Source: a virus. From it: a DNA stretch of 30,602 nt. Under the pieces are notes generated by a model. That model was not told the DNA's origin and did no database searches. It saw only the letters and a list, made by a program, of their open reading frames with translations. The position numbers were made by a program, and so were the translations under genes. The stretch is taken from positions 1 to 30,602 of IMG/VR virus record IMGVR_UViG_3300020162_000556; one strand, given 5' to 3'. Shown one piece after another: positions 1 to 29,081 of the stretch; position 1 is the first letter of the stretch, and each line of letters begins with the position of its first letter.

Positions 1-1026
1 AGTGAATCTACTGCTACGTCAGGTGCAATTTACTCAATTGGTGGAAGTTATGTGCCTGGCACAACATCTCTTGGTAATATGTATGGCATTGGATATGGGT
101 ATTCAGGCAATGCGGGAATAACAGCAACCGGAGTGCCGATTAACTTATGGGGAATGTATGTCGCTGATGCTGGCATATCGAGGATTTTCTTATCCTCGGG
201 TTCTGGTAACGGTTATTTTAATAACATGGTATTGGCAGGAGGTGATATGCGAGCGCCGATCTTCTATGATTATAATGACACCGGTCGTTACCTAGATCCA
301 AACGGAACTTCGTATTTAGGTACAATTTATTGTAGCGACATTTACAACCACCTAGGCGGATGGTTCCGTAACTATGGTGCAACTGGTATCTATAACCAAA
401 GCTATGGTAACCATTTTTATTCTAGAGCCGGTACTACTTGGGTAATTACTGGCGCCGGTGACAACGTAGAATTACAATTTAGATCTAACCACGAATCGAC
501 TATTCGTGGTTACGTTTACGCAGACACCTCAAACAACATGGGATTCTTGAATTCAGCCGGCAGTTGGCGTTTGCGTGTTGTTGGAGATGATTACTCACTA
601 GCCGATGGTAGCTCAATGCGAGCACAAATCTTCTATGATAGTAATAACACTACCTATTACGCCAACTTGGATGGAACAACTTATTGTTATTACTTACAAT
701 CAGCAACCACGATACAAGCCGATTCTGACAGAAGAATCAAAGACAATATTGAAACAATTCCAAATGCATTAGACAAAGTTTTGAGACTTAGAGGAACCAC
801 TTTCACCAGAACCGACTTACCAGATAAAAGTAAAAAATACATGGGTTTGATTGCCCAGGAAGTTCTAGCTGTTATTCCAGAAGTTGTTGGAGGATCAGAA
901 GAAACCAGATACTCAGTGAGTTACGGAGAAATTGTGGCGGTACTTATTGAGTCCATTAAAGAACTAAATGCAAAAGTTGATACCTTGCAAAAAACAATCC
1001 AAACGTATGAAACAGGTGATAAATAA
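1..1026 (+). CDS. Tail fibre / receptor-binding protein C-terminal part with S74 intramolecular chaperone (5' end outside window)
   Basis: The frame is open from base 1, so this is the 3' part of a longer gene; the GTG at 52 is only an internal codon. The body has fibre-like repeats: RAPIFYDYNDTGRYLDPNGT and, about 120 residues later, RAQIFYDSNNTTYYANLDGT. Between them lies a segment of the GNTGWYN-like type common in phage fibres (GATGIYNQSYGNHFY). The C-terminal ~100 residues match the peptidase S74 chaperone: SDRRIKDNI begins at the serine codon at 724, followed by the GLIAQEV and SVSYGEIVAVLIESIKEL segments and a terminal coiled coil. In this family the chaperone trimerises the fibre and cleaves itself off just before that serine. 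The neighbouring adhesin genes support a distal-tail role. The S74 call is firm; the type of fibre is not known. Confidence 0.88.
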   Translation, partial: SESTATSGAIYSIGGSYVPGTTSLGNMYGIGYGYSGNAGITATGVPINLWGMYVADAGISRIFLSSGSGNGYFNNMVLAGGDMRAPIFYDYNDTGRYLDPNGTSYLGTIYCSDIYNHLGGWFRNYGATGIYNQSYGNHFYSRAGTTWVITGAGDNVELQFRSNHESTIRGYVYADTSNNMGFLNSAGSWRLRVVGDDYSLADGSSMRAQIFYDSNNTTYYANLDGTTYCYYLQSATTIQADSDRRIKDNIETIPNALDKVLRLRGTTFTRTDLPDKSKKYMGLIAQEVLAVIPEVVGGSEETRYSVSYGEIVAVLIESIKELNAKVDTLQKTIQTYETGDK

Positions 1027-1047: not shown

Positions 1048-1707
1048 ATGGCAGTTAGATTATCCGGCACCAGTATTACATTTAATGATAACTCTGTACA
1101 AACGTCTGATACGTCAGATTCTGGCGGACTTATCAATGTAACTTCCTTTACTGCTAGCGGTACCTATACCGCACCAACAGGTACAACTAGAGTATTTGTA
1201 AAATGTACTGGTGGTGGTGGTGGATCTGCTGGATATTTAGAATCAGGTGGTGCATCAGGATATACTGAAAAAATGATCACAGGGTTATCTGGGGGCCATA
1301 CAACAGCCGTTACTGTGGGTGGGGGTGGCGGTGGAGTAGGATATTATGGTGGTGGTGGAGTGGGTGGAACCAGTAGTTTTGGCGCTTATTGTAGTGCAAC
1401 TGGTGGTAGTGGTGCAAATAATCACTGGACTCACACTGGTGGACATGGTGGCGGTGCAACTGGTGGAGATTTAAACATAAATGGTGGAAGCGGCAGCGGC
1501 CACGGCAATCACCATGGCTCCGCCGGACTTGGTAAAGGTGGCAGTAGTTATTGGGGTGGAGCACCAGCAAGACGACATAGTGGTGGTGAACTTATTGGGC
1601 CAGGAGCACCAGGATGCGGCGGATCAGGTAGTCCAACAGATGGCGGTGGTGCAGCCACTGGGCAACCTGGTGTGGGTGGAATAGTAGTAGTATATGCGTT
1701 TAGATAA
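1048..1707 (+). CDS. Glycine-rich tail adhesin, paralogue 1 of 3
   Basis: A 219-residue protein with a short N-terminal segment (SGTSITFNDNSVQTS), then a beta-rich stretch (TSFTASGTYTAP), then a long Gly/Ser/His domain with runs such as GGGGGSAGY, GGTSSFG and GGHGGG, closing with the hydrophobic strand GGIVVVYAFR. This layout fits the glycine-rich domain found in phage tip adhesins; T4 gp38-like tip proteins are a functional parallel, with polyglycine helices presenting variable loops to the host receptor. It lies 21 nt after the S74 fibre gene, with AGGAAC upstream of the ATG. Two paralogues follow directly. Host recognition is inferred from family and position; the receptor is unknown. Confidence 0.75.
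   Translation: MAVRLSGTSITFNDNSVQTSDTSDSGGLINVTSFTASGTYTAPTGTTRVFVKCTGGGGGSAGYLESGGASGYTEKMITGLSGGHTTAVTVGGGGGGVGYYGGGGVGGTSSFGAYCSATGGSGANNHWTHTGGHGGGATGGDLNINGGSGSGHGNHHGSAGLGKGGSSYWGGAPARRHSGGELIGPGAPGCGGSGSPTDGGGAATGQPGVGGIVVVYAFR
1363..1382 (+). repeat. 20-bp direct repeat in the adhesin genes, copy 1
   Basis: The sequence GGTGGAACCAGTAGTTTTGG encodes part of the GGTSSFG motif. Near-identical copies lie in the other two paralogues, each with one or two changes. They give short homology for recombination between the tandem genes. Confidence 0.7.
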
Positions 1708-1716
1708 GGACACAAA

Positions 1717-2367
1717 ATGGCTGTAACGTTGAGCGGAACTACAGTAAACATAAATGGTAACAGTCTTACCACGTATCCCAACGATGCAGGTACTATAGTT
1801 TCAGTCACTATGTTTACCAGCAGTGGTAATTATACGGTCCCCAGTAATAGCAAGATGGTTTTGGTTCAAGTTGTGGGTGGTGGAGGTGGATCTGCTGGTT
1901 ATTGTGAATCGGGTGGGGGTGGTGGATATGCAGAAGGCGCTTATACAGTATCAACAGGGCAGGTCATATCCGTCACAATAGGTGGTGGTGGAGGTGCTGT
2001 GGGATATTACGCTGGTGCCGGCACCGGCGGAACCAGTAGTTTTGGAAGTTATATAAGCGCAACCGGCGGTTATGGGGCAAATGTTAATTTTAGTCATGGT
2101 GGTGGTCATGGTGGAGTAGGTAGCGGTGGACAAGTTAATACAGCCGGCGGGGTTGGAACTGGTCACGCAAATCACGGAAGTCACTCACAAGCCGGGCAGG
2201 GTGGTGCTAGTTTTTTTGGCGGTTGTGGCGGTGTTCAACGCGGCAATGGCGGATTAAATTACGGCGGAAGTTGTCCAGGAGCAGGAGCACCGGGTGCAGT
2301 ATGTGATGTAGGGAGTACTGGTGCCGCTGGCACCGGCGGAATGGTAATAGTTACAGCTTACACATAA
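1717..2367 (+). CDS. Glycine-rich tail adhesin, paralogue 2 of 3
   Basis: A 216-residue paralogue of the preceding gene, starting 9 nt after its stop, with AAGGA upstream of the ATG. It keeps the same order: N-terminal SGTTVNINGNSLTT, the strand TMFTSSGNYTVPS, then GGGGGSAGYCESGGGGGY, GGTSSFGSYISATGG and SHGGGHGGVGSGG, and the terminal strand GGMVIVTAYT. The core is closer to paralogue 3 than to paralogue 1 (both have AGYCESGG and GGHGGVGSGGQV). The last third, from about residue 150, differs from both, as expected for receptor-facing loops. The role in adsorption is inferred; the domain type and the paralogy are seen directly. Confidence 0.73.
   Translation: MAVTLSGTTVNINGNSLTTYPNDAGTIVSVTMFTSSGNYTVPSNSKMVLVQVVGGGGGSAGYCESGGGGGYAEGAYTVSTGQVISVTIGGGGGAVGYYAGAGTGGTSSFGSYISATGGYGANVNFSHGGGHGGVGSGGQVNTAGGVGTGHANHGSHSQAGQGGASFFGGCGGVQRGNGGLNYGGSCPGAGAPGAVCDVGSTGAAGTGGMVIVTAYT
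2026..2045 (+). repeat. 20-bp direct repeat in the adhesin genes, copy 2
   Basis: GGCGGAACCAGTAGTTTTGG, one base different from copy 1 in the first paralogue. It encodes the same GGTSSFG motif in the same frame. Confidence 0.7.
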
Positions 2368-2382
2368 AAGAGAAACAAACGG

Positions 2383-3081
2383 ATGACAACTAGTATAACT
2401 GGCACCACATTAACTTTCAATGATAGTACCACTATGACCACGGTTCCGGACCGATCATTGGGTCAACCACTGGGAATTTCTACCTATACAGCCGCAGGGA
2501 CATATACCTGGACACCACCCGTTGGATGTAATAGGGTATTGGTCAGGGTAGTTGGTGGGGGTGGAGGTGCCGCTGGCTATTGTGAATCTGGTGGTGCAGG
2601 TGGATATGCAGAAGGATATCATACTACCAGTGCGGCACAAACTGTGGTTGTGGGTGCTGGTGGTGCTGGTACTGGATATTATAGTGCATCCGGTGTGGGT
2701 GGCACCAGTAGTTTTGGCGGATTTATAAGTGCAACCGGCGGCCAAGGGGCAAATAATAACTACAGTCACGCGGGTGGTCATGGTGGAGTAGGTAGTGGTG
2801 GACAGGTTCAAACGATTGGGGGGGCTGGCAGTGGTCATACCAACAGTGTGAACCATTGGCCTGGTGGTACCGGAGGCAAAAGTTATTTTGGTGGTGCTAC
2901 TGCAAAGATACGATCACATGGTGCAACGACAAACGTAGGCCAATTACCAGGCGGTGCGCCAGGGTCAGGTGGGCCAGGACAAGTAACAGATCATTCGCAT
3001 GGAGTAACACTCTTTGGCACCGCTGATTACTATAACAATCGTGGTGTAGCAGGTTGCGTGGTAGTTTATGCGTTTAAGTAA
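2383..3081 (+). CDS. Glycine-rich tail adhesin, paralogue 3 of 3
   Basis: The longest of the three tandem copies, 232 residues. The N-terminal part (ITGTTLTFNDSTTMTTVP, then STYTAAGTYTWTPPVG) lines up with the others. The Gly core has GGGGGAAGYCESGGAGGY, GGTSSFGGFISATGG and GGHGGVGSGGQV, and the end is GVAGCVVVYAFK. Its C-terminal third is extended and carries its own inserts (GKSYFGGATAKIRSHG and VTDHSHGVTLFG), making this region the most divergent of the set. The start is preceded by an A-rich stretch with AAGAGAAA, a weak ribosome site, so translation may be coupled to the gene before it (15-nt gap). A tip-adhesin role is inferred from domain type and position. Confidence 0.73.
   Translation: MTTSITGTTLTFNDSTTMTTVPDRSLGQPLGISTYTAAGTYTWTPPVGCNRVLVRVVGGGGGAAGYCESGGAGGYAEGYHTTSAAQTVVVGAGGAGTGYYSASGVGGTSSFGGFISATGGQGANNNYSHAGGHGGVGSGGQVQTIGGAGSGHTNSVNHWPGGTGGKSYFGGATAKIRSHGATTNVGQLPGGAPGSGGPGQVTDHSHGVTLFGTADYYNNRGVAGCVVVYAFK
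2698..2717 (+). repeat. 20-bp direct repeat in the adhesin genes, copy 3
   Basis: GGTGGCACCAGTAGTTTTGG, one base different from copy 1. The change (GGC for GGA) is silent, so the DNA differs while the GGTSSFG motif is kept. Confidence 0.7.
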
Positions 3082-3089
3082 TATAAATA
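3082..3089 (+). promoter_or_regulatory. T4-type late promoter octamer TATAAATA
   Basis: An exact match to the T4 late-promoter consensus directly after the third adhesin stop and 21 nt before the next ATG. By the T4 rule transcription would start near 3095, leaving a short leader with AAGGAAA as ribosome site. The octamer is seen; use by a gp55-like sigma factor is inferred. Confidence 0.65.
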
Positions 3090-3110
3090 GATAAAATAAG
3101 GAAAAATTCA

Positions 3111-3506
3111 ATGTTAAGAGCACTATTACATGCACAAGAACCAGGCAGAATCTGCGAGGTGGTGTCACCTGGTGCAGAATTTCCAGTTCATGAAAGTTTT
3201 TCGTGGGTTGATGTGCCAGACGGCACCACAGCAGTTGATACATACAATTCTGATGGTAGCATTACTAAATGGGATCCATTGACACAACCTGGATTTGCTG
3301 AGACTGCATATCGAATTGCCAGAGGTATAGCATATACGTCCATTGGTGACCAATTGGATATGTTGTATAAAGAATTAAAAACCAATGGAACTATTAGTAA
3401 TACCGGCCCCTGGGCACTCCATATTGCCAACGTAAAAGCAACCATACCCAAAGATGATCCAGCCGCGGTATTGGCTTGGAATAGACGGCAGGGCGGGTTA
3501 GAGTAA
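3111..3506 (+). CDS. Small conserved tail-associated phage protein
   Basis: A 131-residue protein with no signal peptide or membrane segment. Its middle carries the pattern AYTSIGDQLDMLYKEL (about residues 74-89), followed by WALHIANVKATIPKDDP. I associate the GDQLDMLY...VKA.IPK arrangement with small proteins encoded beside tail fibre genes in many phages, some annotated as tail assembly chaperones, but I cannot assign a function. It follows the three adhesin genes behind an exact TATAAATA octamer and has a good ribosome site (AAGGAAA), so it is probably a late gene made with the tail proteins. The N-terminal half (residues 10-60) looks beta-rich and has no pattern I recognise. Confidence 0.6.
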   Translation: MLRALLHAQEPGRICEVVSPGAEFPVHESFSWVDVPDGTTAVDTYNSDGSITKWDPLTQPGFAETAYRIARGIAYTSIGDQLDMLYKELKTNGTISNTGPWALHIANVKATIPKDDPAAVLAWNRRQGGLE

Positions 3507-3523
3507 TATATCCAGAAAAAGTC

Positions 3524-3552
3524 TTTACTATTTTTTTCATCCATGCTAGACT
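3524..3552 (+). promoter_or_regulatory. Sigma70-type promoter for the halogenase cassette
   Basis: TTTACT (3524-3529), a 17-bp spacer, then TAGACT (3547-3552) preceded by TGC, giving an extended -10. The gap between 3506 and 3586 holds no gene, and the promoter lies just before the three-gene redox cassette. The ribosome site AGGA follows at 3572-3575. Confidence 0.5.
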
Positions 3553-3585
3553 TGCTGATAAGTAAGTTTAACAGGACGAAATTAC

Positions 3586-4830
3586 ATGGACTTCAATAAT
3601 CGATTTTCCGTAGCACACTGGGATCGCTTTCCAGTAGGGCACGAACACGTTTTTTATGATACTATGAAAAATGCTGATCCCAGATATTTGGCCAATATAC
3701 ACGATGTATATTTTGGAAAATATTTCAATTATGTATACAATGGTCAGAACCGTCGCTGTGGAAATCCCATGGGAGTTGAGGCAAGTGACAAACAAATAGA
3801 TTATTTGTTCAAATTACAAGAAGAAACTGGTGTTCAAATCAGCTTAACCTTCAACACAGTAGAAGTTCCGCACGAAGTAGCATTTGATTATAATATTACA
3901 AAACAGTTTGTGGAATGGATTGGCAGTTATTACGATCGTGGTATGCGTAGTTGTACCATCAGTTCAGAACATATTATGCGATTGGGTTGGTTGCAAGAAC
4001 GATGTCCTGATATGCGTTGGAAAAGCACAGTGAATCAAATTGTGGCAGATGCACAGCAATTTATTGACTATGCATATCTGGGCTACAATAGTATCAATCT
4101 AGATCGCAGTTTAAATCGTAATCTCAAAGAACTAAAAAGAATTAAACGAGCACAAGATTACCTCAACAGTAAAAACCCCAAAAAGAAAGTTATAACCTTC
4201 CTGCTGGTTGCAGAGGCATGTATATATCATTGCCCATTTAAGAAAGAACATGATAGTGTGGGTGAAGTTATTAGTACTGATTACTTCCATGATTATGCAG
4301 ATCTTAGTTGTAATGCTTGGCGTAGTGTTCCAGAATTTGCCGCAAGTCCCAGGTCAGGTATTAACGTAGTAGCTAATGATATTGCCACATTTAACCAATT
4401 TGCCAGTTTAGTTGATGTGTTTAAATATTCAGGACGATTAACATCACCAGTGGCAGATCCAGCTGATTCTAAATTTATGAAGGCAGCTTGGTTTTATGCA
4501 CCCCCCAGTAAGTTTACACAAGCAAGGACTGATCCTGAAGATACAATTTATGCAAATGACTTTAATGAAATTGCAGACAATAACCTAGCGCCACTGCACA
4601 ATTGGATACCTGGATGGATTGATACACGGTATGGAGTGGGGGATTGGAGACATACTTATAAACCATACGATGGCATTTGGTCAACCGCTCCAGGAAAGAA
4701 ACTTGAAAAGTTGTTGTTGAATTGCCGTAGTCAATGCTGGGATTGTCATGAATGTGAAAGAACATTTGGTATGGCTGATGTGGATTCTGCATTGCAGATG
4801 AGGAAAAACTATGTTGAACTCCGACGTTAA
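3586..4830 (+). CDS. Peptidase U32-like TIM-barrel protein with two cysteine clusters, probable Fe-S enzyme
   Basis: A 414-residue protein. The middle shows a motif like those of the U32 family: E210-A-C212-x3-C216-P-x4-H222 after a hydrophobic strand (VITFLLV), and later VDVFKYSGR (277-284), which resembles the family's D-x-x-K-x-x-GR signature. U32 members TrhP, RlhA, UbiU and UbiV are TIM-barrel proteins that work in RNA or quinone hydroxylation, and the Ubi pair bind a 4Fe-4S cluster. The C-terminus adds a tight cluster, C380-x3-C384-x2-C387-x2-C390, which could hold a second metal site. It is first in a three-gene set and overlaps the next gene by 20 nt, which suggests coupled expression with the oxygenase and halogenase. 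Membership of U32 is my reading of motifs; a radical-SAM or other TIM-barrel Fe-S family is the main alternative. Confidence 0.6.
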   Translation: MDFNNRFSVAHWDRFPVGHEHVFYDTMKNADPRYLANIHDVYFGKYFNYVYNGQNRRCGNPMGVEASDKQIDYLFKLQEETGVQISLTFNTVEVPHEVAFDYNITKQFVEWIGSYYDRGMRSCTISSEHIMRLGWLQERCPDMRWKSTVNQIVADAQQFIDYAYLGYNSINLDRSLNRNLKELKRIKRAQDYLNSKNPKKKVITFLLVAEACIYHCPFKKEHDSVGEVISTDYFHDYADLSCNAWRSVPEFAASPRSGINVVANDIATFNQFASLVDVFKYSGRLTSPVADPADSKFMKAAWFYAPPSKFTQARTDPEDTIYANDFNEIADNNLAPLHNWIPGWIDTRYGVGDWRHTYKPYDGIWSTAPGKKLEKLLLNCRSQCWDCHECERTFGMADVDSALQMRKNYVELRR

Positions 4831-5410
4831 ACTTATTGACAATATAATTTCCAAATCGTATGCAGATGAAATTGAAAATGATATATTGCATTCTAAGTTT
4901 CCATTTTATTATATCAGTGATGTAACCAACGCAAACTATGGCGATAATTCAGGATGGACTCATTTACTATTCAATTTTGGTAACGAACCCACCCCATGGT
5001 TTCCGTTTATGAAACCGTTGGCACTGGCAGTAGCTGATGCTATTGAACAGCCCATATCCCAATTACTACGTATGCGGATAGGATTGCTAACACCAGGAGG
5101 TACAAAAGAATTTAATACTCCACATATTGATTTTGCCACACCACATCATACTGTTTGCTATTATGTCAATGATTCAGATGGTGATACAATAGTATTTGAT
5201 CAGACTATGCATGGGGCACCAACTGATCAGTTTACAGAAAAAGCATTATTTGAACATGTAGCAGAAACAAACTTCACTATTGCGGCCAGAGCAACCCCCA
5301 AGAAGGGTAGTATATGTTCGTTTGATGGAATGCGATTTCATGCAAGTAGTACCCCGAAAATTTCTAAAAGGCGTGTAGTTATCACGATAAATTATGTACC
5401 ACAACATTAA
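4811..5410 (+). CDS. 2-oxoglutarate/Fe(II)-dependent oxygenase-like protein
   Basis: A 199-residue single-domain protein of the double-stranded beta-helix type common in marine phages. The iron-binding triad is visible: H105-x-D107 in NTPHIDFAT and the distal H177 in GMRFHASS, with R187/R188 placed to bind the carboxylate of 2-oxoglutarate. RMRIGLLTPGG before the HxD and VCYYVNDSDGDTIVFD after it are typical of this group. Such enzymes use O2 and 2-oxoglutarate to hydroxylate or otherwise oxidise a substrate. The ATG lies inside the end of the U32-like gene and the gene overlaps the halogenase start by 17 nt, so the three are probably co-translated. The substrate is unknown; relation to prolyl 4-hydroxylases is likely only at fold level. 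Confidence 0.75.
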   Translation: MLNSDVKLIDNIISKSYADEIENDILHSKFPFYYISDVTNANYGDNSGWTHLLFNFGNEPTPWFPFMKPLALAVADAIEQPISQLLRMRIGLLTPGGTKEFNTPHIDFATPHHTVCYYVNDSDGDTIVFDQTMHGAPTDQFTEKALFEHVAETNFTIAARATPKKGSICSFDGMRFHASSTPKISKRRVVITINYVPQH

Positions 5411-7004
5411 ATCTATATTAATAGTAGGTGGCGGCACCAGCGGTTGGATGACCGCGGCCGCAATAGCAAAACGTTTACCACACATAAAACTTTCCCTGGT
5501 AGAAAGCCCAGATGTTCCTGTGATTGGAGTGGGAGAAAGTACTCTGGGACACATTAACCAATACTTCCATTTGTTGGGGTTAACTGATGAAGAATGGATG
5601 CCGCATTGTAATGCCACATATAAAACCAGTATCAAGTTTATAGATTTTAGAGAAAATCCCACAGAAGTTCCACACAAGTTTCATTACCCGTTTGGGAAAT
5701 ATGATGTGACGGATAAACCACGAGAAATTATGGATTGGTTTTTATATAAAGCCAAACATCCAGAATTAGATCCATACAATTTTGCTGAATTCTTTCATGA
5801 TTCAATATTAATGACAGATCGCAATAAGTTAACTAGCAATGCTGATCGTAAAATTCGTGGATTTAATTTTGCATCTGATACAGCATATCATTTTGAAGCA
5901 TCATTGTTTGGTATATATTTGCGTGATCACATTTGTTTGCCATCTGGCATGACTCATGTATTAGACCATGTTGTGGACATTGCTCAAAATGAAGATGGTA
6001 GTATCAAAGAAATAAACACCAAAAATAACGGTGCCTTAACCGCAGATTTGTATATTGATTGTACTGGTTTTAAATCCATGTTGTTGGAACAAAAGTTAGG
6101 GGTAGAGTTTGTTTCGTTTAAAGAAACATTGTTAAATGATCGTGCAGTAGCTACAGTAATTCCATATATTGATAAAACGACAGAAATGGAAAACTACACC
6201 AGTTGTACGGCTATTGAATGTGGCTGGGTGTGGAATATACCGTTATGGCATCGTATTGGCACAGGATATGTGTATAGTAGTCAATTTGCTACCGAGGAAC
6301 AGGCCGAGGAACAATTTAGAAAACATTTGGCCAGTAACCGAATGATTTTTCCCGACGCAGATCGAGCCAAAAATGCAGAATTTAGACATATAAAGATCAA
6401 GCATGGAGTACATAAACGTGCTTGGGAAAAGAATGTTGTGGCAGTGGGATTGTCTAATGGCTTTATTGAACCATTGGAAAGTACTGGGTTAATGTTGACG
6501 CATGAATGCATCATTAAAATCGTTGCCATGTTAACAATGCGTAATGGGTTTGTGAATCAGCATGAAGTAGATATGTTTAACCATGCATTTTTTGAACAAA
6601 CAATTGGTATGAAAGAATTTGTTTCAGAACATTATGCGTTAAGTGGTCGGCATGATACTCCATACTGGAAAAAAGTTGCTGGGGATATAACATATAGTCC
6701 CTCAATGCGAGATTTTACACCAGAAATGTACAACCAATATAATTCAATGGCACAAAGTATGCACCGTTCCAGATCATTTACCATTGGTACTGCTGGCATT
6801 ACATATATTGCTGCCGGTATGGGATTTAACCCCATGGATGCTGTGAATAAAAAGTTTAAAGATGCTGGATATGGTGAGATCGACGGATATGAAGAAGCAG
6901 TATATGCTATGTGGACAGCACATCGTGATGAAGTATTGAAAGTAATCGATACTTTGCCTACTCATTATGAATTTCTTAAAAACAATATTCACAAGAATCG
7001 TTGA
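5394..7004 (+). CDS. Flavin-dependent halogenase (tryptophan halogenase family)
   Basis: A 536-residue protein, the usual size of the family. Residues 10-18 (IVGGGTSGW) form the GxGxxG FAD site. VGVGEST (about 44-50) and K77 in the TYKTSIKF segment match the region of the catalytic lysine (K79 in PrnA). WVWNIP at 278-283 is the W-x-W-x-I-P hallmark, and GFIEPLESTG (356-365) carries the conserved acidic residue. The enzymes take FADH2 from a reductase, make HOCl or HOBr and pass it along a tunnel to the lysine. A cyanophage homologue, VirX1, has been shown to iodinate many substrates, so a broad range is possible. No flavin reductase gene is in the window, so a host reductase would be needed. 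It is last in the cassette, and its stop codon falls inside the -35 box of the primase promoter. Confidence 0.92.
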   Translation: MYHNIKSILIVGGGTSGWMTAAAIAKRLPHIKLSLVESPDVPVIGVGESTLGHINQYFHLLGLTDEEWMPHCNATYKTSIKFIDFRENPTEVPHKFHYPFGKYDVTDKPREIMDWFLYKAKHPELDPYNFAEFFHDSILMTDRNKLTSNADRKIRGFNFASDTAYHFEASLFGIYLRDHICLPSGMTHVLDHVVDIAQNEDGSIKEINTKNNGALTADLYIDCTGFKSMLLEQKLGVEFVSFKETLLNDRAVATVIPYIDKTTEMENYTSCTAIECGWVWNIPLWHRIGTGYVYSSQFATEEQAEEQFRKHLASNRMIFPDADRAKNAEFRHIKIKHGVHKRAWEKNVVAVGLSNGFIEPLESTGLMLTHECIIKIVAMLTMRNGFVNQHEVDMFNHAFFEQTIGMKEFVSEHYALSGRHDTPYWKKVAGDITYSPSMRDFTPEMYNQYNSMAQSMHRSRSFTIGTAGITYIAAGMGFNPMDAVNKKFKDAGYGEIDGYEEAVYAMWTAHRDEVLKVIDTLPTHYEFLKNNIHKNR

Positions 7005-14078: not shown

Positions 14079-15797
14079 ATGGCCATTGTAAGTATTTCGC
14101 AAATCAAACATCGCAGGGGTAAACTAGAAGATTTACCTCAATTAGCTTCCGGAGAACTGGGGTGGGCCACTGACTCACGCAGATTATTCATTGGTAATGG
14201 ACTTACCAATGCTGAAGAAAATGCTCCAGAAATAGGCAATACTGAGGTATTAACAGAATACAGTAATCTACTGGACCAGTTGGAAACATATACCTACAAA
14301 GGTGCGGCTGCCGGATACAATGTGTTTACTGGTCGCAATCAAGCTACTATTGTACGAACAATGCAAGAGAAGTTTGATGACATGGTAAATGTCAAAGACT
14401 TTGGTGCAGTTGGCGATGGCTCAACTGACGACACTGCGGCTATTAATCGTGCATTGAATGAATTATTTTGCCGAGAGTTAAACGTAGAAATTAGACGTGC
14501 ATTATATTTTCCGGCTGGAACATATTTAATTGGAACAGCCGCGTATCAGGCGCTGTTCCCATTCGAAACTCTTTACATTAAAATCCCAACTTATGCAACT
14601 ATGATTGGGGATGGTATGGATTGTACATTTATTAAACAAAGCACCACCGCTTCGACCTATACAGCTATACTAAGCGACAACCGACAACAGATAGGCACGG
14701 CACAGGGCCTGGGTGGTGGAGTAACTTCTAAATATATCGATATACGTGATATAACATTTCAACAAGAACTTGGTAGTAACCAAGATGTATTCTTAATGGA
14801 TTATGCAATTGAAACAAGTTTTTCCCGTGTAAAATTTCAAGGACCATTTACCAGTACTGTTGATACCTCATACATAACTTCATCTTCATCAAGCAAGGCT
14901 TGTTTGAGAATTAACTCATTAACTGATGGTGCTCCGATCAATGTGAGATTTACTGATTGTGAATTTAACGGGCATACGTATGGAGTAGTTGGTATTAAAT
15001 CACACAATGGTATAAAGTTTGATCATTGTTATTTTAATTATCTTTACACTGGGTGTAAGTTTGGTGAAAGTCCTACTAGTACCGAAACCGCTCGTGTTAA
15101 TATTACAAACAGTGTATTTGATAAAATATTTAATGAAGGTATACACGGTTATGTAGCGGCTAATGTTGCGGTTACATCAGCATTCAACACCTTCCTGGAT
15201 GTGGGAACGCAATTAGCGGGTGCGGCGGCATCTACAGCCACAACGTCTGTTATTAAATATGAATCTGGTAACTGTGCCAGCTTTGGTGACTTCTTTGCTA
15301 GAACAGATGCTTGCGTCACTACAAGTAAATTACCAAGAGTTGATCACACTACAGGTGCAAACTTTTCAGTAATACCAGGCAATGGATTACAGACTGGATA
15401 TTATCATATACAAGCAGGTAAGTCAATTACATTACTTAATAATATATCTGCTGCCACCACAACTGGTATAACTTTTATTCCATATGCAACAAATGGATCA
15501 GACCCTACTTCAGTTATTGGTGCCTGGATTGATTATGCTATTATTAGATCTGGTAGAGGTGTTCGAGCTGGTACATTAATACTTGCTATGGATACCAACG
15601 GGGTTCAACTTGTTGATAATGTATTTGCCAACAGCAATGGATCAGCATTTCAAACTGGTATCGACAGCACCAACTCTACTCCTGTGGGTGTAACGTTCAC
15701 TGCCACGATTGCTAGTGGTGTAACTACCGTGTACTATACTACCACCAGCACTGGTCAACCCGCTACTATGCGATATCAAATTCGATATTTTTCATAA
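14079..15797 (+). CDS. Tailspike with Mtd-like N-terminus and pectate-lyase-type beta-helix
   Basis: A 572-residue tailspike. Residues 1-41 match the phage-particle-attachment type domain seen at the start of the Bordetella phage Mtd and many tail fibres (QIKHRRGKLEDLPQL, then GELGWATDSRRLFIGNG). A linker follows, then NVKDFGAVGDGSTDDTAAIN (about 104-123), the classic opening of a pectate_lyase_3 parallel beta-helix. Repeated coils run to about residue 430 (for example ITFQQELGSN, FTDCEFNG, ITNSVFDKIF). The C-terminal ~140 residues are a separate beta domain. Such spikes bind and often cleave surface polysaccharide; catalytic acids cannot be placed with confidence. It has its own late-type promoter. 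Confidence 0.87.
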   Translation: MAIVSISQIKHRRGKLEDLPQLASGELGWATDSRRLFIGNGLTNAEENAPEIGNTEVLTEYSNLLDQLETYTYKGAAAGYNVFTGRNQATIVRTMQEKFDDMVNVKDFGAVGDGSTDDTAAINRALNELFCRELNVEIRRALYFPAGTYLIGTAAYQALFPFETLYIKIPTYATMIGDGMDCTFIKQSTTASTYTAILSDNRQQIGTAQGLGGGVTSKYIDIRDITFQQELGSNQDVFLMDYAIETSFSRVKFQGPFTSTVDTSYITSSSSSKACLRINSLTDGAPINVRFTDCEFNGHTYGVVGIKSHNGIKFDHCYFNYLYTGCKFGESPTSTETARVNITNSVFDKIFNEGIHGYVAANVAVTSAFNTFLDVGTQLAGAAASTATTSVIKYESGNCASFGDFFARTDACVTTSKLPRVDHTTGANFSVIPGNGLQTGYYHIQAGKSITLLNNISAATTTGITFIPYATNGSDPTSVIGAWIDYAIIRSGRGVRAGTLILAMDTNGVQLVDNVFANSNGSAFQTGIDSTNSTPVGVTFTATIASGVTTVYYTTTSTGQPATMRYQIRYFS

Positions 15798-26586: not shown

Positions 26587-26901
26587 ATGACAACAATTAA
26601 TCTTGAAGAAATTCCGCAAGGGGTATTGGATGACATCGCTGATTCTTTTGAAGTAGTTACCTTTGAAAATTATATGAAACCGGTAACTGCTGAATGTGAA
26701 TTCAAACGATCAAACTATCGTAGGTTCGTTGCCGACAATGTTGAAGGCTGGGTGTTAGATAGTAAAACTTTTGAATCTAAATTAATTACAGGAACTAAAA
26801 TGGAATGTTATCTTGTTCGAGGTGTTTTTGCTGCCGATACCGCAGATATCTATTCTATCCAGTCTGGTGGTATTGGGGTATCGAATTTTGGAGTTAAATA
26901 A
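26587..26901 (+). CDS. Small acidic protein of unknown function, 104 residues
   Basis: Twenty-one bases after the previous stop, with GGGAG upstream of the ATG. It is soluble and mixed: an acidic start (INLEEIPQGVLDDIAD), then alternating strands such as EVVTFENYM and GWVLDSKTFESKLITGTK, ending in a Gly-rich strand (SIQSGGIGVSNFG). No motif is recognised. Its stop overlaps the RtcB ATG by one base (TAATG), so translation of the ligase is probably coupled to it. A partner or regulator of RtcB is a possible reading, without other support. Confidence 0.6.
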   Translation: MTTINLEEIPQGVLDDIADSFEVVTFENYMKPVTAECEFKRSNYRRFVADNVEGWVLDSKTFESKLITGTKMECYLVRGVFAADTADIYSIQSGGIGVSNFGVK

Positions 26902-28100
26902 TGACTTTTAAGCAAATAATTATCGACGATACGTTACGTGTTCCGATCAAAGCGTGGACTGATCATATCGAAGACAGTGCCCGGACTCAGGCGATGAATC
27001 TGGCCAAAATGCCGTTCATACACAAGAACGGTGTGGCACTGATGCCGGACGTTCATGCCGGAATTGGTTCCACTGTGGGAAGTGTGATTGCGACTGAACA
27101 TGCGGTGATTCCTGCGGCTGTGGGTGTAGATATCGGCTGCGGAATGAACGCAGTTCGCACCAGCTTGCGAGCAGAGGATTTGCCGGATTCATTGCGTGAC
27201 ATTCGTTTACAAATTGAACGCGATGTGCCGTTGGGTGCGGGTGGAAAACATTCTGGATTTGCTTGTATGCCTGATGGATTACCCTACCCGCCTGAGCAAG
27301 TAATAGATGTGTTGTATAAAGGTGATCGTACAAAGGCGTGGGACAAGTATGGCACTCAACTGGGAACTCTGGGTTCAGGTAACCACTTTATCGAACTGTG
27401 TTTGGATGAATCGGGTGATGTTTGGATTATGTTGCACTCAGGAAGTCGCGGCATTGGTAACATGATTGGTCGTTACTTTATTGAACGTGCCAAGACTCTG
27501 ATGGAACAATATTTCATCACGTTGCCGGATCGTGATTTGGCTTATTTGCCTGATGGAACTAAGGACTTTGAGGATTACATTGCGGCGATTGGTTGGGCAC
27601 AAGCATACGCGAAAGAGAATCGCGCACAGATGATGACTACGGTTATTGCGGCTTTGCGACGACATGTTGCCAAAGAGTTTGTGATTACGCAAGAAGCGAT
27701 CAACTGTCATCATAACTATCTGGAGATTGAGAACCACTTTGGCACTAACATGTATATTACCCGCAAGGGTGCGATACGTGCCCGCAAAGGTGATTTGGGA
27801 ATCATTCCTGGTAGCATGGGAGCCAAGTCGTTTATCGTTGAAGGTTTGGGAAGTGCGGAATCCTATTGCTCTTGCAGTCACGGTGCTGGGCGTAAAATGT
27901 CACGCACTGAAGCCAAGAAGACCTTTACGGTGGCAGACTTACAAGCGCAGACGTTAGGTGTAGAGTGCAACAAGACTTCAGCGGTGCTGGATGAGATTCC
28001 TGGTGCGTATAAGGACATTGATGAGGTCATGGCGAATCAACAGGATTTGGTTATGATTCGTCATACCCTGAAGCAGGTTATGTGTGTAAAAGGAGCCTGA
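26901..28100 (+). CDS. rtcB: RNA-splicing ligase RtcB
   Basis: A 399-residue RtcB, close to the 408 of E. coli. It joins 3'-phosphate or 2',3'-cyclic-phosphate ends to 5'-OH ends with GTP and Mn2+. The metal ligands are present: D77 and C80 (GVDIGCGM), H162 (GSGNHFIE), H179 (MLHSGSRG), and the INCHHNYLE segment (H270/H271). The guanylylated H327 lies in SCSHGAGRKMSR. A role in mending tRNAs cut by host anticodon nucleases, or other RNAs cleaved as defence, is an inference; T4 does this with Pnkp and Rnl1 instead. No archease or RtcA gene is visible. Confidence 0.95.
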   Translation: MTFKQIIIDDTLRVPIKAWTDHIEDSARTQAMNLAKMPFIHKNGVALMPDVHAGIGSTVGSVIATEHAVIPAAVGVDIGCGMNAVRTSLRAEDLPDSLRDIRLQIERDVPLGAGGKHSGFACMPDGLPYPPEQVIDVLYKGDRTKAWDKYGTQLGTLGSGNHFIELCLDESGDVWIMLHSGSRGIGNMIGRYFIERAKTLMEQYFITLPDRDLAYLPDGTKDFEDYIAAIGWAQAYAKENRAQMMTTVIAALRRHVAKEFVITQEAINCHHNYLEIENHFGTNMYITRKGAIRARKGDLGIIPGSMGAKSFIVEGLGSAESYCSCSHGAGRKMSRTEAKKTFTVADLQAQTLGVECNKTSAVLDEIPGAYKDIDEVMANQQDLVMIRHTLKQVMCVKGA

Positions 28101-28121: not shown

Positions 28122-28139
28122 TTTAAAAGGGTGGATAAA

Positions 28140-29081
28140 ATGACCAATCGAATAGCCTATGTCAACGGAGAATATGTTGATGAATCTAAGGCAGTAGTAT
28201 CAATTTTTGACTCTAGTCTATGGTATGGGGATATGGTGTTTGACATGTGCCGTACCTATGACAGGAAATTCTTTAGACTACGTGAGCATTTAAATCGGCT
28301 ATATGATGGGTTAAAGATCCTGCATACAGATCCGAAGCTTTCTATAACCTCACTAGAGGATGTTTGCTATAAATTGGCAGAGTTAAATAGTTCAATGATG
28401 GATGCCGATGATGAGCATAGGATCATGGTATCGATTAGCAATGGGTTACTAGATGTTGGACAGGGTCAGTTTGATTCGTCAAGTAAAAGATCTACGGTCA
28501 TTGTCAACGATCTCAGCATCAAGCGTAGGATAGGGGAATTAGCACCGTTGTTAGATAGCGGGATTAATGTAGTGATCCCATCCCAACGATCCATGCCTGC
28601 ATGGATGATAGATCCCAAGATCAAAAATCGTTGCCGTCTATGGATGAAGATGGCTGATATGGAAGTAGCCCAACATCCAGGAAAAAATAATTGGGCGTTG
28701 ATGCTTGACATTGATGGATTTATCAGTGAAGGCAATAATAGTAATTTCTTCATGGTTAAGAATGGTACCATCTATACGCCCGAAGGAAGAAATATATTAC
28801 GCGGAGTTAACCGAAATTATATTTTTGAAATATCCGAATTGTTAGGTATCCCTTGTATTGAGAAGAATATAGAACCTTATGATGTTAAACTAGCCGACGA
28901 AGCTTTTGTAACAGGAACATCGTTAACCATGCTACCAGTTACAGGGATTAATCATTATCCCATTGGATCTGGCACACCTGGACCTGTTTATCGTCGATTA
29001 CTGACCCACTGGTCCGAGAGTGTAGGAGTAGATATAGAAGCCCAACTTCGGTCCTACGGCACACAGTTAGGTCTGATGTGA
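28140..29081 (+). CDS. PLP-dependent class IV aminotransferase
   Basis: I start at ATG 28140 (313 residues) since AAGGG stands eight bases upstream; the GTG at 28131 lies inside that site. The fold IV family pattern is clear: NGEYVDESKAVVSIFDSSLWYG near the start in two pieces, FRLREHLNRL, and later DGFISEGNNSNFFMVK, the phosphate-binding EG..SN motif, then FVTGTS near the end. K160 (in PKIKN) fits the catalytic lysine position, with K162 as second choice. Members include branched-chain and D-amino acid aminotransferases and aminodeoxychorismate lyase; the substrate cannot be told. Possible uses are host amino-acid metabolism or making a modified sugar or surface group, given the glycosyltransferase-like gene downstream. 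Confidence 0.85.
   Translation: MTNRIAYVNGEYVDESKAVVSIFDSSLWYGDMVFDMCRTYDRKFFRLREHLNRLYDGLKILHTDPKLSITSLEDVCYKLAELNSSMMDADDEHRIMVSISNGLLDVGQGQFDSSSKRSTVIVNDLSIKRRIGELAPLLDSGINVVIPSQRSMPAWMIDPKIKNRCRLWMKMADMEVAQHPGKNNWALMLDIDGFISEGNNSNFFMVKNGTIYTPEGRNILRGVNRNYIFEISELLGIPCIEKNIEPYDVKLADEAFVTGTSLTMLPVTGINHYPIGSGTPGPVYRRLLTHWSESVGVDIEAQLRSYGTQLGLM

Follow-up and report, generated by a model that had tools for sequence, protein, structure and literature searches.

A VirX1-type halogenase gene and its linkage to glycine-rich tail adhesins in a viral genome

Genes of the tail-fibre and enzyme region

The window, which is the whole stretch of DNA analysed, from an aquatic virus of bacteria (30,602 nucleotides; IMG/VR record IMGVR_UViG_3300020162_000556), contains three consecutive plus-strand ORFs, P0001 (414 aa), P0002 (199 aa) and P0003 (536 aa). 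As a preliminary description had stated, the three genes overlap (20 nt for P0001/P0002 and 17 nt for P0002/P0003) and, by annotation of the neighbouring genes, lie between tail adhesins and replication genes. Dozens of viral contigs keep all three, which rules out chance ORFs. P0001–P0003 come at the end of a series made up of three glycine-rich tail adhesins and their chaperone (Table 1). This wider pattern sits upstream of positions 3524–7004, to which the preliminary description was confined.

Table 1. Features of the adhesin and enzyme region, in window coordinates
Feature	Position	Strand	Evidence
Tail-fibre C-terminal part with S74 intramolecular chaperone	52..1026	+	PF13884, 53 bits; PHROG tail fibre families
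Glycine-rich tail adhesin 1 (31% Gly)	1048..1707	+	phrog_863 tail family, E=9.5e-39
Glycine-rich tail adhesin 2	1717..2367	+	PF21722, 22.6 bits, just under cut-off 24.3
Glycine-rich tail adhesin 3	2383..3081	+	PF21722, 42.1 bits, cut-off 24.3
phrog_1787 protein, probable adhesin assembly chaperone	3111..3506	+	phrog_1787, E=1.3e-22
P0001, divergent U32-like TIM-barrel protein	3586..4830	+	AlphaFold fold, hhalign profile
P0002, 2OG/Fe(II) oxygenase, peptidyl-hydroxylase-like fold, facultative	4811..5410	+	Fold and motif
P0003, VirX1-type FAD-dependent halogenase	5394..7004	+	PF04820, PDB 6qgm, motifs

The three adhesins align mutually and with cyanophage gp38-type proteins, and adhesin 1 had no match to PF21722 (Gly_rich_2). 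They share a signature, which is Y63, E65, E74, Y99, N124, H129 and H152 in adhesin 1, Y62, E64, E73, Y97, N122, H127 and H150 in adhesin 2 (codons at 1900, 1906, 1933, 2005, 2080, 2095 and 2164), and Y66, E68, E77, Y99, N124, H129 and H152 in adhesin 3. Its E/E/(Y)/N/H/H part is nearly invariant, and the signature tyrosine is replaced in a few adhesins. As an adhesin motif, 'GAGYCESGG' was rejected as too narrow, its core varying Y/H/V. A PDB sequence search with the adhesin gave no match. The phrog_1787 protein sits between the adhesins and the enzymes in most lineages, and its family HMM has a match next to the halogenase in most lineages, as it does in every isolate checked. By analogy with the adhesin–chaperone pair gp24–gp25 of Pam3 (PMC9608196), it is a probable adhesin assembly chaperone.

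An extended -10 promoter had been placed ahead of the three enzyme genes. This was not supported, as a sigma-70 scan lists no site in 3507–3585; in the same scan, sigma-70 sites were scarcer than in shuffled DNA (13 vs 17.7). In relatives, mostly 2–39 nt separate the U32-like gene from the gene upstream of it, and a private promoter for the U32-like gene is therefore not conserved. A T4-type late promoter, TATAAATA, was dropped with 4 matches against 2.8 expected; the matches ahead of the chaperone overlap the last codons of the adhesin.

Identity and association of the three enzymes

P0003 is a VirX1-type flavin halogenase, for which halogenating activity is predicted from its sequence. The HMM search proposed in the preliminary description gave 353 bits for PF04820 (E=2.4e-105), and the best PDB match is VirX1 (6qgm, 469 bits). 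GxGxxG, GWVWNIP, EPLESTG and the lysine K77 are conserved in P0003, and the motif set is invariant in 44 homologues; GxGxxG, GWxWxIP, the catalytic Lys and EPLESTG align with the ORF of cyanophage Syn10.

The assignment of P0002 as a 2OG/Fe(II) oxygenase was likewise confirmed by its DSBH fold and HxD...H motif. H105, D107, H177 and R188 are invariant in an alignment of its family, and in structure comparison the protein folds like PHD2, Pseudomonas putida P4H and PiuC. The 2OG oxygenase Pfam HMM scored 18.9 bits, below its cut-off of 27. PHROG 274 names the P0002 family 'DNA endonuclease V'.

For P0001, the U32-like assignment, made earlier from sequence alone, holds by fold and profile and lacks a PF01136 match: the Pfam search gave none for P0001 and none for its 39 homologues, and direct sequence searches of Pfam, NCBIfam and the PDB with P0001 returned nothing usable. 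The AlphaFold model (pLDDT 89.8) has 5d88 as its top fold match (Z 16.6, rmsd 3.2 Å over 227 residues), and the next unrelated barrel fold reaches Z 12.1. Profile alignment by hhalign matches P0001 to a divergent bacterial U32 group at 99.2% (E 1.1e-19, 242 columns); the group counts as U32 by its members L180 and L181, which exceed the PF01136 cut-off. C212-X3-C216, C242 and C380-X3-C384-X2-C387-X2-C390 are invariant in the 39 homologues. Because the four-Cys motif of U32 oxidases, CX6CX15CX3/4C, was absent from P0001 in the alignment, the protein is classed just as a divergent U32-like protein, with a putative Fe-S cluster and putative hydroxylase activity.

The preliminary description suggested that the three enzymes could hydroxylate and then halogenate one substrate. 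Only the pairing of the U32-like gene with the halogenase stood, as it is found in 54/54 related viral loci; the oxygenase is present in 27 of the 54 and underwent at least 4 gains or losses, with the other two still paired, and the idea of a fixed trio acting in sequence on one small substrate holds poorly. That the trio hydroxylates and then halogenates one shared substrate other than a protein, for instance a quinone or an RNA base, would agree with this constant pairing and with the chemistry of known U32 enzymes, whose hydroxylation targets are RNA bases and quinones (PMC6599085, PMC6747719). However, the oxygenase is facultative, VirX1-type halogenases of cyanophages occur without a neighbouring U32-like gene yet still with adhesins, and U32-like proteins without a halogenase exist (L103, L105, L113 and L176), so that the U32-like substrate may differ. 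The shared-substrate reading is thus considered very improbable. Among the substrates suggested earlier, only a peptide is favoured, read as the tail-adhesin protein, and not an indole, quinone or tRNA base.

Co-occurrence of halogenase and adhesin

The strongest conserved partner of the halogenase is the upstream glycine-rich adhesin. VirX1-type halogenases were grouped into clusters less than 60% identical to the window and less than 75% to each other, each with at least 12 kb of DNA, and glycine-rich ORFs lie within 6 kb in 15 of 20 clusters. NrdB control loci had such ORFs nearby in 0 of 20 cases (1/80 overall). A DNA-pattern scan for the adhesin alone yielded two homologous classes, split by H127 and H150 (adhesin 2 numbering). 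Adhesins with both signature histidines are accompanied by a halogenase in 35/38 loci with at least 2 kb downstream and in 20/20 with at least 4.5 kb, whereas homologous adhesins without them are accompanied by one in 0/12 and 0/7, respectively. The window's adhesin 2 gave no tblastn match, and the Syn10 adhesin therefore served as query. The adhesin type was found in 20 of 50,697 phage records, all 20 of which carry a VirX1-type halogenase; conversely, the adhesin is present in 18/18 phage records whose halogenase is at least 41% identical.

Syn10, from which VirX1 comes, is among the 8 cyanophages whose adhesins, 21 in all, have the signature; in P-TIM40 one residue is changed from E to Q. 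In the adhesin alignment the signature is absent from Syn19, S-H25 and an S-RIM44 isolate that lacks the module. Of the S-RIM44 isolates, four possess both adhesins and halogenases and another four lack both. Comparison of one pair shows three adhesins, the chaperone, two halogenases and further small genes at the fibre locus where the other isolate has a different gene set; the whole module is exchanged allelically within one phage species.

These data bear on the reading given in the literature, where it is speculative (PMC2984593, PMC9964418, PMC10452541), namely auxiliary metabolism: the halogenase would have a small host molecule as its substrate, such as free tryptophan or an indole, for example to make or detoxify an antibiotic, and would sit at an adhesin locus that merely tolerates insertions. 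VirX1 has a large, open active site and accepts in vitro a broad range of aromatic substrates, many free small molecules among them (PMC8407142). Moreover, glycine-rich ORFs are missing from the vicinity of 5 of the 20 halogenase clusters, and in S-B64 the halogenase (37% identical) is placed among recombination genes. Against this stand the strong tie to one adhesin class, the joint replacement of halogenases and adhesins in S-RIM44 and a cassette in which no other small-molecule biosynthesis genes were recognised. Auxiliary metabolism is accordingly judged unlikely, though it is the foremost of the alternatives.

The signature adhesins form one clade with one change on the tree, so the match between signature and halogenase counts as a single evolutionary association. 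Tight linkage within a tail-fibre hot spot could by itself hold adhesin and halogenase together without a direct reaction. The invariant E/H/H could also bind a metal and have no part in halogenation; the nearly invariant pairs of His and Glu residues resemble metal ligands. The signature might then be a metal-binding or folding site of one adhesin lineage, with a co-inherited halogenase that acts on another virion or host-surface target. This leaves unexplained why adhesin and halogenase remain paired across deep divergence while other neighbours change, and why the module also acquires peptidyl-hydroxylase-like 2OG genes, and it appears improbable. None of the papers found in a search of mostly open-access literature connects phage halogenases with tail adhesins.

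Proposed modification of the tail tip and comparison with known systems

The best explanation, held with somewhat better than even confidence, is that the module enzymes modify the phage's own tail adhesins, as synteny, signature and co-occurrence suggest; the peptidyl-hydroxylase-like fold of P0002 and the large, open active site of VirX1 also speak for it. Positions 1048–7004 would form one module of three tail-tip adhesins, an assembly chaperone and adhesin-modifying enzymes, and the adhesins would be chemically changed before or during tail assembly. The halogenase would use host-supplied FADH2, O2 and halide to form an enzyme-bound hypohalite that would place the halogen on an aromatic residue of the adhesin. 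Candidate residues are the signature tyrosine (Y97 of adhesin 2) and the variable Y/H at position 62; the two invariant histidines are chemically less likely targets. In phages that have it, the 2OG enzyme with its peptidyl-hydroxylase-like fold would hydroxylate these adhesins too, and the U32-like Fe-S protein may do so as well. The modified tip may have altered receptor binding or fibre stability.

That the halogenase travels with one special version of the adhesin across many phages suggests that such phages chemically alter their host-gripping tips. A wider statement may or may not hold, with about equal chances: that tailed phages have a dedicated module of adhesin, chaperone, VirX1-type halogenase, peptidyl hydroxylase and, in some cases, a U32-like Fe-S enzyme, with which they halogenate and hydroxylate the adhesins of their own tail tips, that the native substrate of the VirX1 family is a virion protein and not a metabolite, and that host recognition needs non-standard residues made post-translationally. 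Phage 'tryptophan halogenases' and many cyanophage 2OG oxygenases have long been labelled auxiliary metabolic genes with no substrate assigned. To our knowledge, no native substrate of VirX1 is known. The tie to a defined tail-adhesin class offers a concrete, testable substrate for these enzymes. If the proposal is true, halogenase and oxygenase genes become virion-maturation genes instead of metabolic genes, and protein halogenation joins the known ways in which phages shape receptor-binding tips.

Among known systems, VirX1 of cyanophage Syn10 (PDB 6qgm; PMC8407142) is a full-length homologue of P0003, about 44% identical, with the same FAD and catalytic motifs. Its gene likewise comes after signature adhesins and the same chaperone family; unlike VirX1, the window's close relatives have a U32-like gene immediately 5' of the halogenase. 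The flavin halogenases MibH (PDB 5uao) and SrpI (PMC10858898), which act on ribosomal peptides, are a precedent for peptide substrates, but theirs are secreted natural products, whereas the substrate proposed for P0003 is a virion protein.

PHD2/EGLN1, P. putida P4H (which acts on EF-Tu) and PiuC share with P0002 the double-stranded beta-helix (Z about 14–16) and HxD...H plus Arg, at 10–18% identity. Mk0906 (5d88), UbiU/UbiV, TrhP and RlhA have the TIM-barrel fold and the conserved CX3C then His of P0001. In contrast, the cysteine spacing of P0001 is not CX6CX15CX3C, and its additional C-terminal CX3CX2CX2C is common to the divergent bacterial U32 group. Finally, S16 gp38, T2-type gp38 and Pam3 gp24 with its chaperone gp25 (PMC9608196, PMC12892980) resemble the window in the glycine-rich tail-tip domain and in the gene order of adhesin then chaperone. 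Between the glycine-rich motifs, those phages have hypervariable loops, whereas the adhesins of the window have the nearly invariant E/E/Y/N/H/H; the window also differs in the enzyme genes attached 3' of its adhesins and chaperone.

Composition of the cassette

The 30.6 kb fragment of an IMG/VR virus carries three ORFs whose previously described positions, with overlaps of 20 nt and 17 nt, are borne out by the ORF coordinates. Upstream lie an S74-type fibre end, three glycine-rich adhesin genes and a phrog_1787 gene, and downstream are genes for a primase and a DnaB-type helicase. The tail-spike gene, containing Mtd_N and pectate-lyase-like domains, is distant from the other fibre genes, and the RNA ligase and aminotransferase genes are possible auxiliary genes.

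Coordinates of the features discussed
Feature	Sequence	Position	Strand
Adhesins 1-3	window	1048-3081	
phrog_1787 gene	window	3111-3506	
Gene 1, U32-like (P0001)	window	3586-4830	+
Gene 2, 2OG/Fe(II) oxygenase (P0002)	window	4811-5410	+
Gene 3, halogenase (P0003)	window	5394-7004	+
Tail-spike gene	window	14079-15797	
RtcB RNA ligase	window	26901-28100	
Class IV aminotransferase	window	28131-29081	
U32-like gene	L103	5989-7299	
U32-like gene, first	L113	5962-7317	
U32-like gene, second	L113	12249-13320	
Adhesin match, SCREM1_66 region	S-CREM1, OP535465.1	54494-55291	

Gene 3 encodes a VirX1-type flavin-dependent halogenase, which matches PF04820 (353 bits) and the PHROG tryptophan halogenase (492 bits). 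Its best solved-structure match is VirX1 of cyanophage Syn10 (6qgm, ~44% identity), and all known halogenase motifs are invariant across 44 relatives. In Syn10, S-RIM44 and P-TIM40 (L056, L488, L491), the adhesins are followed by tandem overlapping halogenase genes, the first Syn10 copy being 39% identical to P0003; two different halogenases may thus act on one or several adhesins.

Gene 2 encodes a 2OG oxygenase with HxD...H and Arg invariant in the alignment of relatives. The closest folds to its model (pLDDT 86.9) are PiuC, PHD2 and bacterial P4H, a group rich in peptidyl hydroxylases. PHROG 274 and numerous cyanophage entries name the family 'DNA endonuclease V'. Both fold and motif identify the members considered here as 2OG/Fe(II) oxygenases, and the annotation seems to be an error that has spread between records.

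Gene 1 has no match in Pfam. Its structure model (pLDDT 89.8) retrieved the solved U32 domain 5d88 first, with a Z of 16.6 versus 12.1 for the next fold. In profile comparison it matches, at 99.2%, a divergent bacterial group passing the PF01136 cut-off; the two have in common the CxxxC...H stretch and, at the C-terminus, a Cys4 motif. Across 39 homologues, with identities down to 33%, seven cysteines are invariant, and two Fe-S sites are plausible. A similar C-terminal Cys4 motif is also found in divergent bacterial U32 genes that, like UbiU/UbiV, stand side by side in pairs (L191, L203, L190, L201).

Association of the three genes

The preliminary description suggested that the trio could act together on one substrate. 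A halogenase follows in all 54 contigs with close gene 1 relatives, and gene 2 is found in 27 of them. On a tree of 44 halogenases, the gene 2 state changes six times, at least four of these being strongly supported. More distant gene 1 relatives lie directly beside a halogenase (L106, L107, L109), one gene away (L160-L163), or in loci without one (L103, L105, L113, L176). Gene presence, the tree and the distant relatives therefore make gene 1 and the halogenase the core pair within this clade, and the oxygenase is facultative.

The L103 gene lies between transglycosylase-like and QueD-like genes with a polynucleotide kinase nearby, and these neighbours suggest that some gene 1 relatives may have a different role, one involving nucleic acids. 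The phage contig L113 has two U32-like genes, both lying downstream of a large tail-fibre gene.

Adhesins as companions of the halogenase

Beyond the 3524-7004 stretch of the preliminary description, the steady companion of the halogenase is a glycine-rich adhesin. A glycine-rich ORF is present in 18 of 29 halogenase clusters less than 60% identical to that of the window, and in 15 of 20 when restricted to DNA of at least 12 kb. For control loci surrounding homologues of the window's own NrdB ribonucleotide reductase, the count is 0 of 20 (1 of 80 overall); this gauges the base rate, and halogenase and adhesin may still simply share a preference for the fibre locus. The remaining 5 of 20 clusters have no such neighbour. 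The S-B64 halogenase is surrounded by recombination genes. In the cyanophage isolates checked, the gene separating adhesins from halogenase belongs to the phrog_1787 family, and its product is probably a chaperone comparable to Pam3 gp25 (PMC9608196).

In adhesin 2 numbering, E64, E73, N122, H127 and H150 are common to all 67 aligned cassette adhesins, and Y97 to 64. A DNA-pattern scan with GSGGDxNxYGG, which contains none of these signature residues, recovered two homologous adhesin classes. With both histidines, a halogenase is in the locus in 35/38 cases (at least 2 kb downstream) and 20/20 (at least 4.5 kb), the three exceptions having short downstream DNA; without both histidines, the counts are 0/12 and 0/7. 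This adhesin type occurs in 20 of the 50,697 phage records scanned. Every one of the 20 also encodes a VirX1-type halogenase, and they include all 18 records in which halogenase identity is 41% or more. The signature recurs in 21 adhesins from eight cyanophages including Syn10, with one E to Q change in P-TIM40, although its positions were picked after viewing the alignment and the isolate adhesins, being related sequences, do not provide an independent check. Syn19 and S-H25 have a gene 1 relative, no VirX1-type halogenase, and adhesins without the signature. Since signature adhesins form a single clade, their match with the halogenase represents one retained evolutionary event, not repeated independent gain. 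In S-CREM1, the annotated CDS SCREM1_66 ends at 54862 and the adhesin match continues, possibly marking an interrupted adhesin copy.

The S-RIM44 isolates provide a natural exchange. KX349291, 293, 294 and 296 have both adhesins and VirX1-type halogenases, whereas KX349292, 295, 297 and KU594607 have neither. In the one pair of loci compared, the interval from the long fibre gene to gp13 of ES_42_0910 contains the genes for three adhesins, a chaperone and two halogenases, plus other small genes. The same interval of Np_05_0604 contains four genes, none a signature adhesin or a halogenase; one is 2OG-type oxygenase-like by eye, and another is a weak chaperone-family relative.

Proposed modification of the adhesins

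Modification of the adhesins by halogenase and oxygenase is the most likely mechanism. The adhesins would be produced late in infection together with their chaperone, and the halogenase, with host FADH2, and the oxygenase would act on exposed residues that lie between the adhesins' glycine-rich motifs, prior to attachment of the tip. The corresponding loops of gp38-type adhesins are hypervariable and carry receptor specificity (PMC12892980, PMC9608196). In contrast, certain residues between these motifs are near-invariant in the cassette adhesins, a sequence pattern that would suit a site of chemical function better than a surface tuned to the host.
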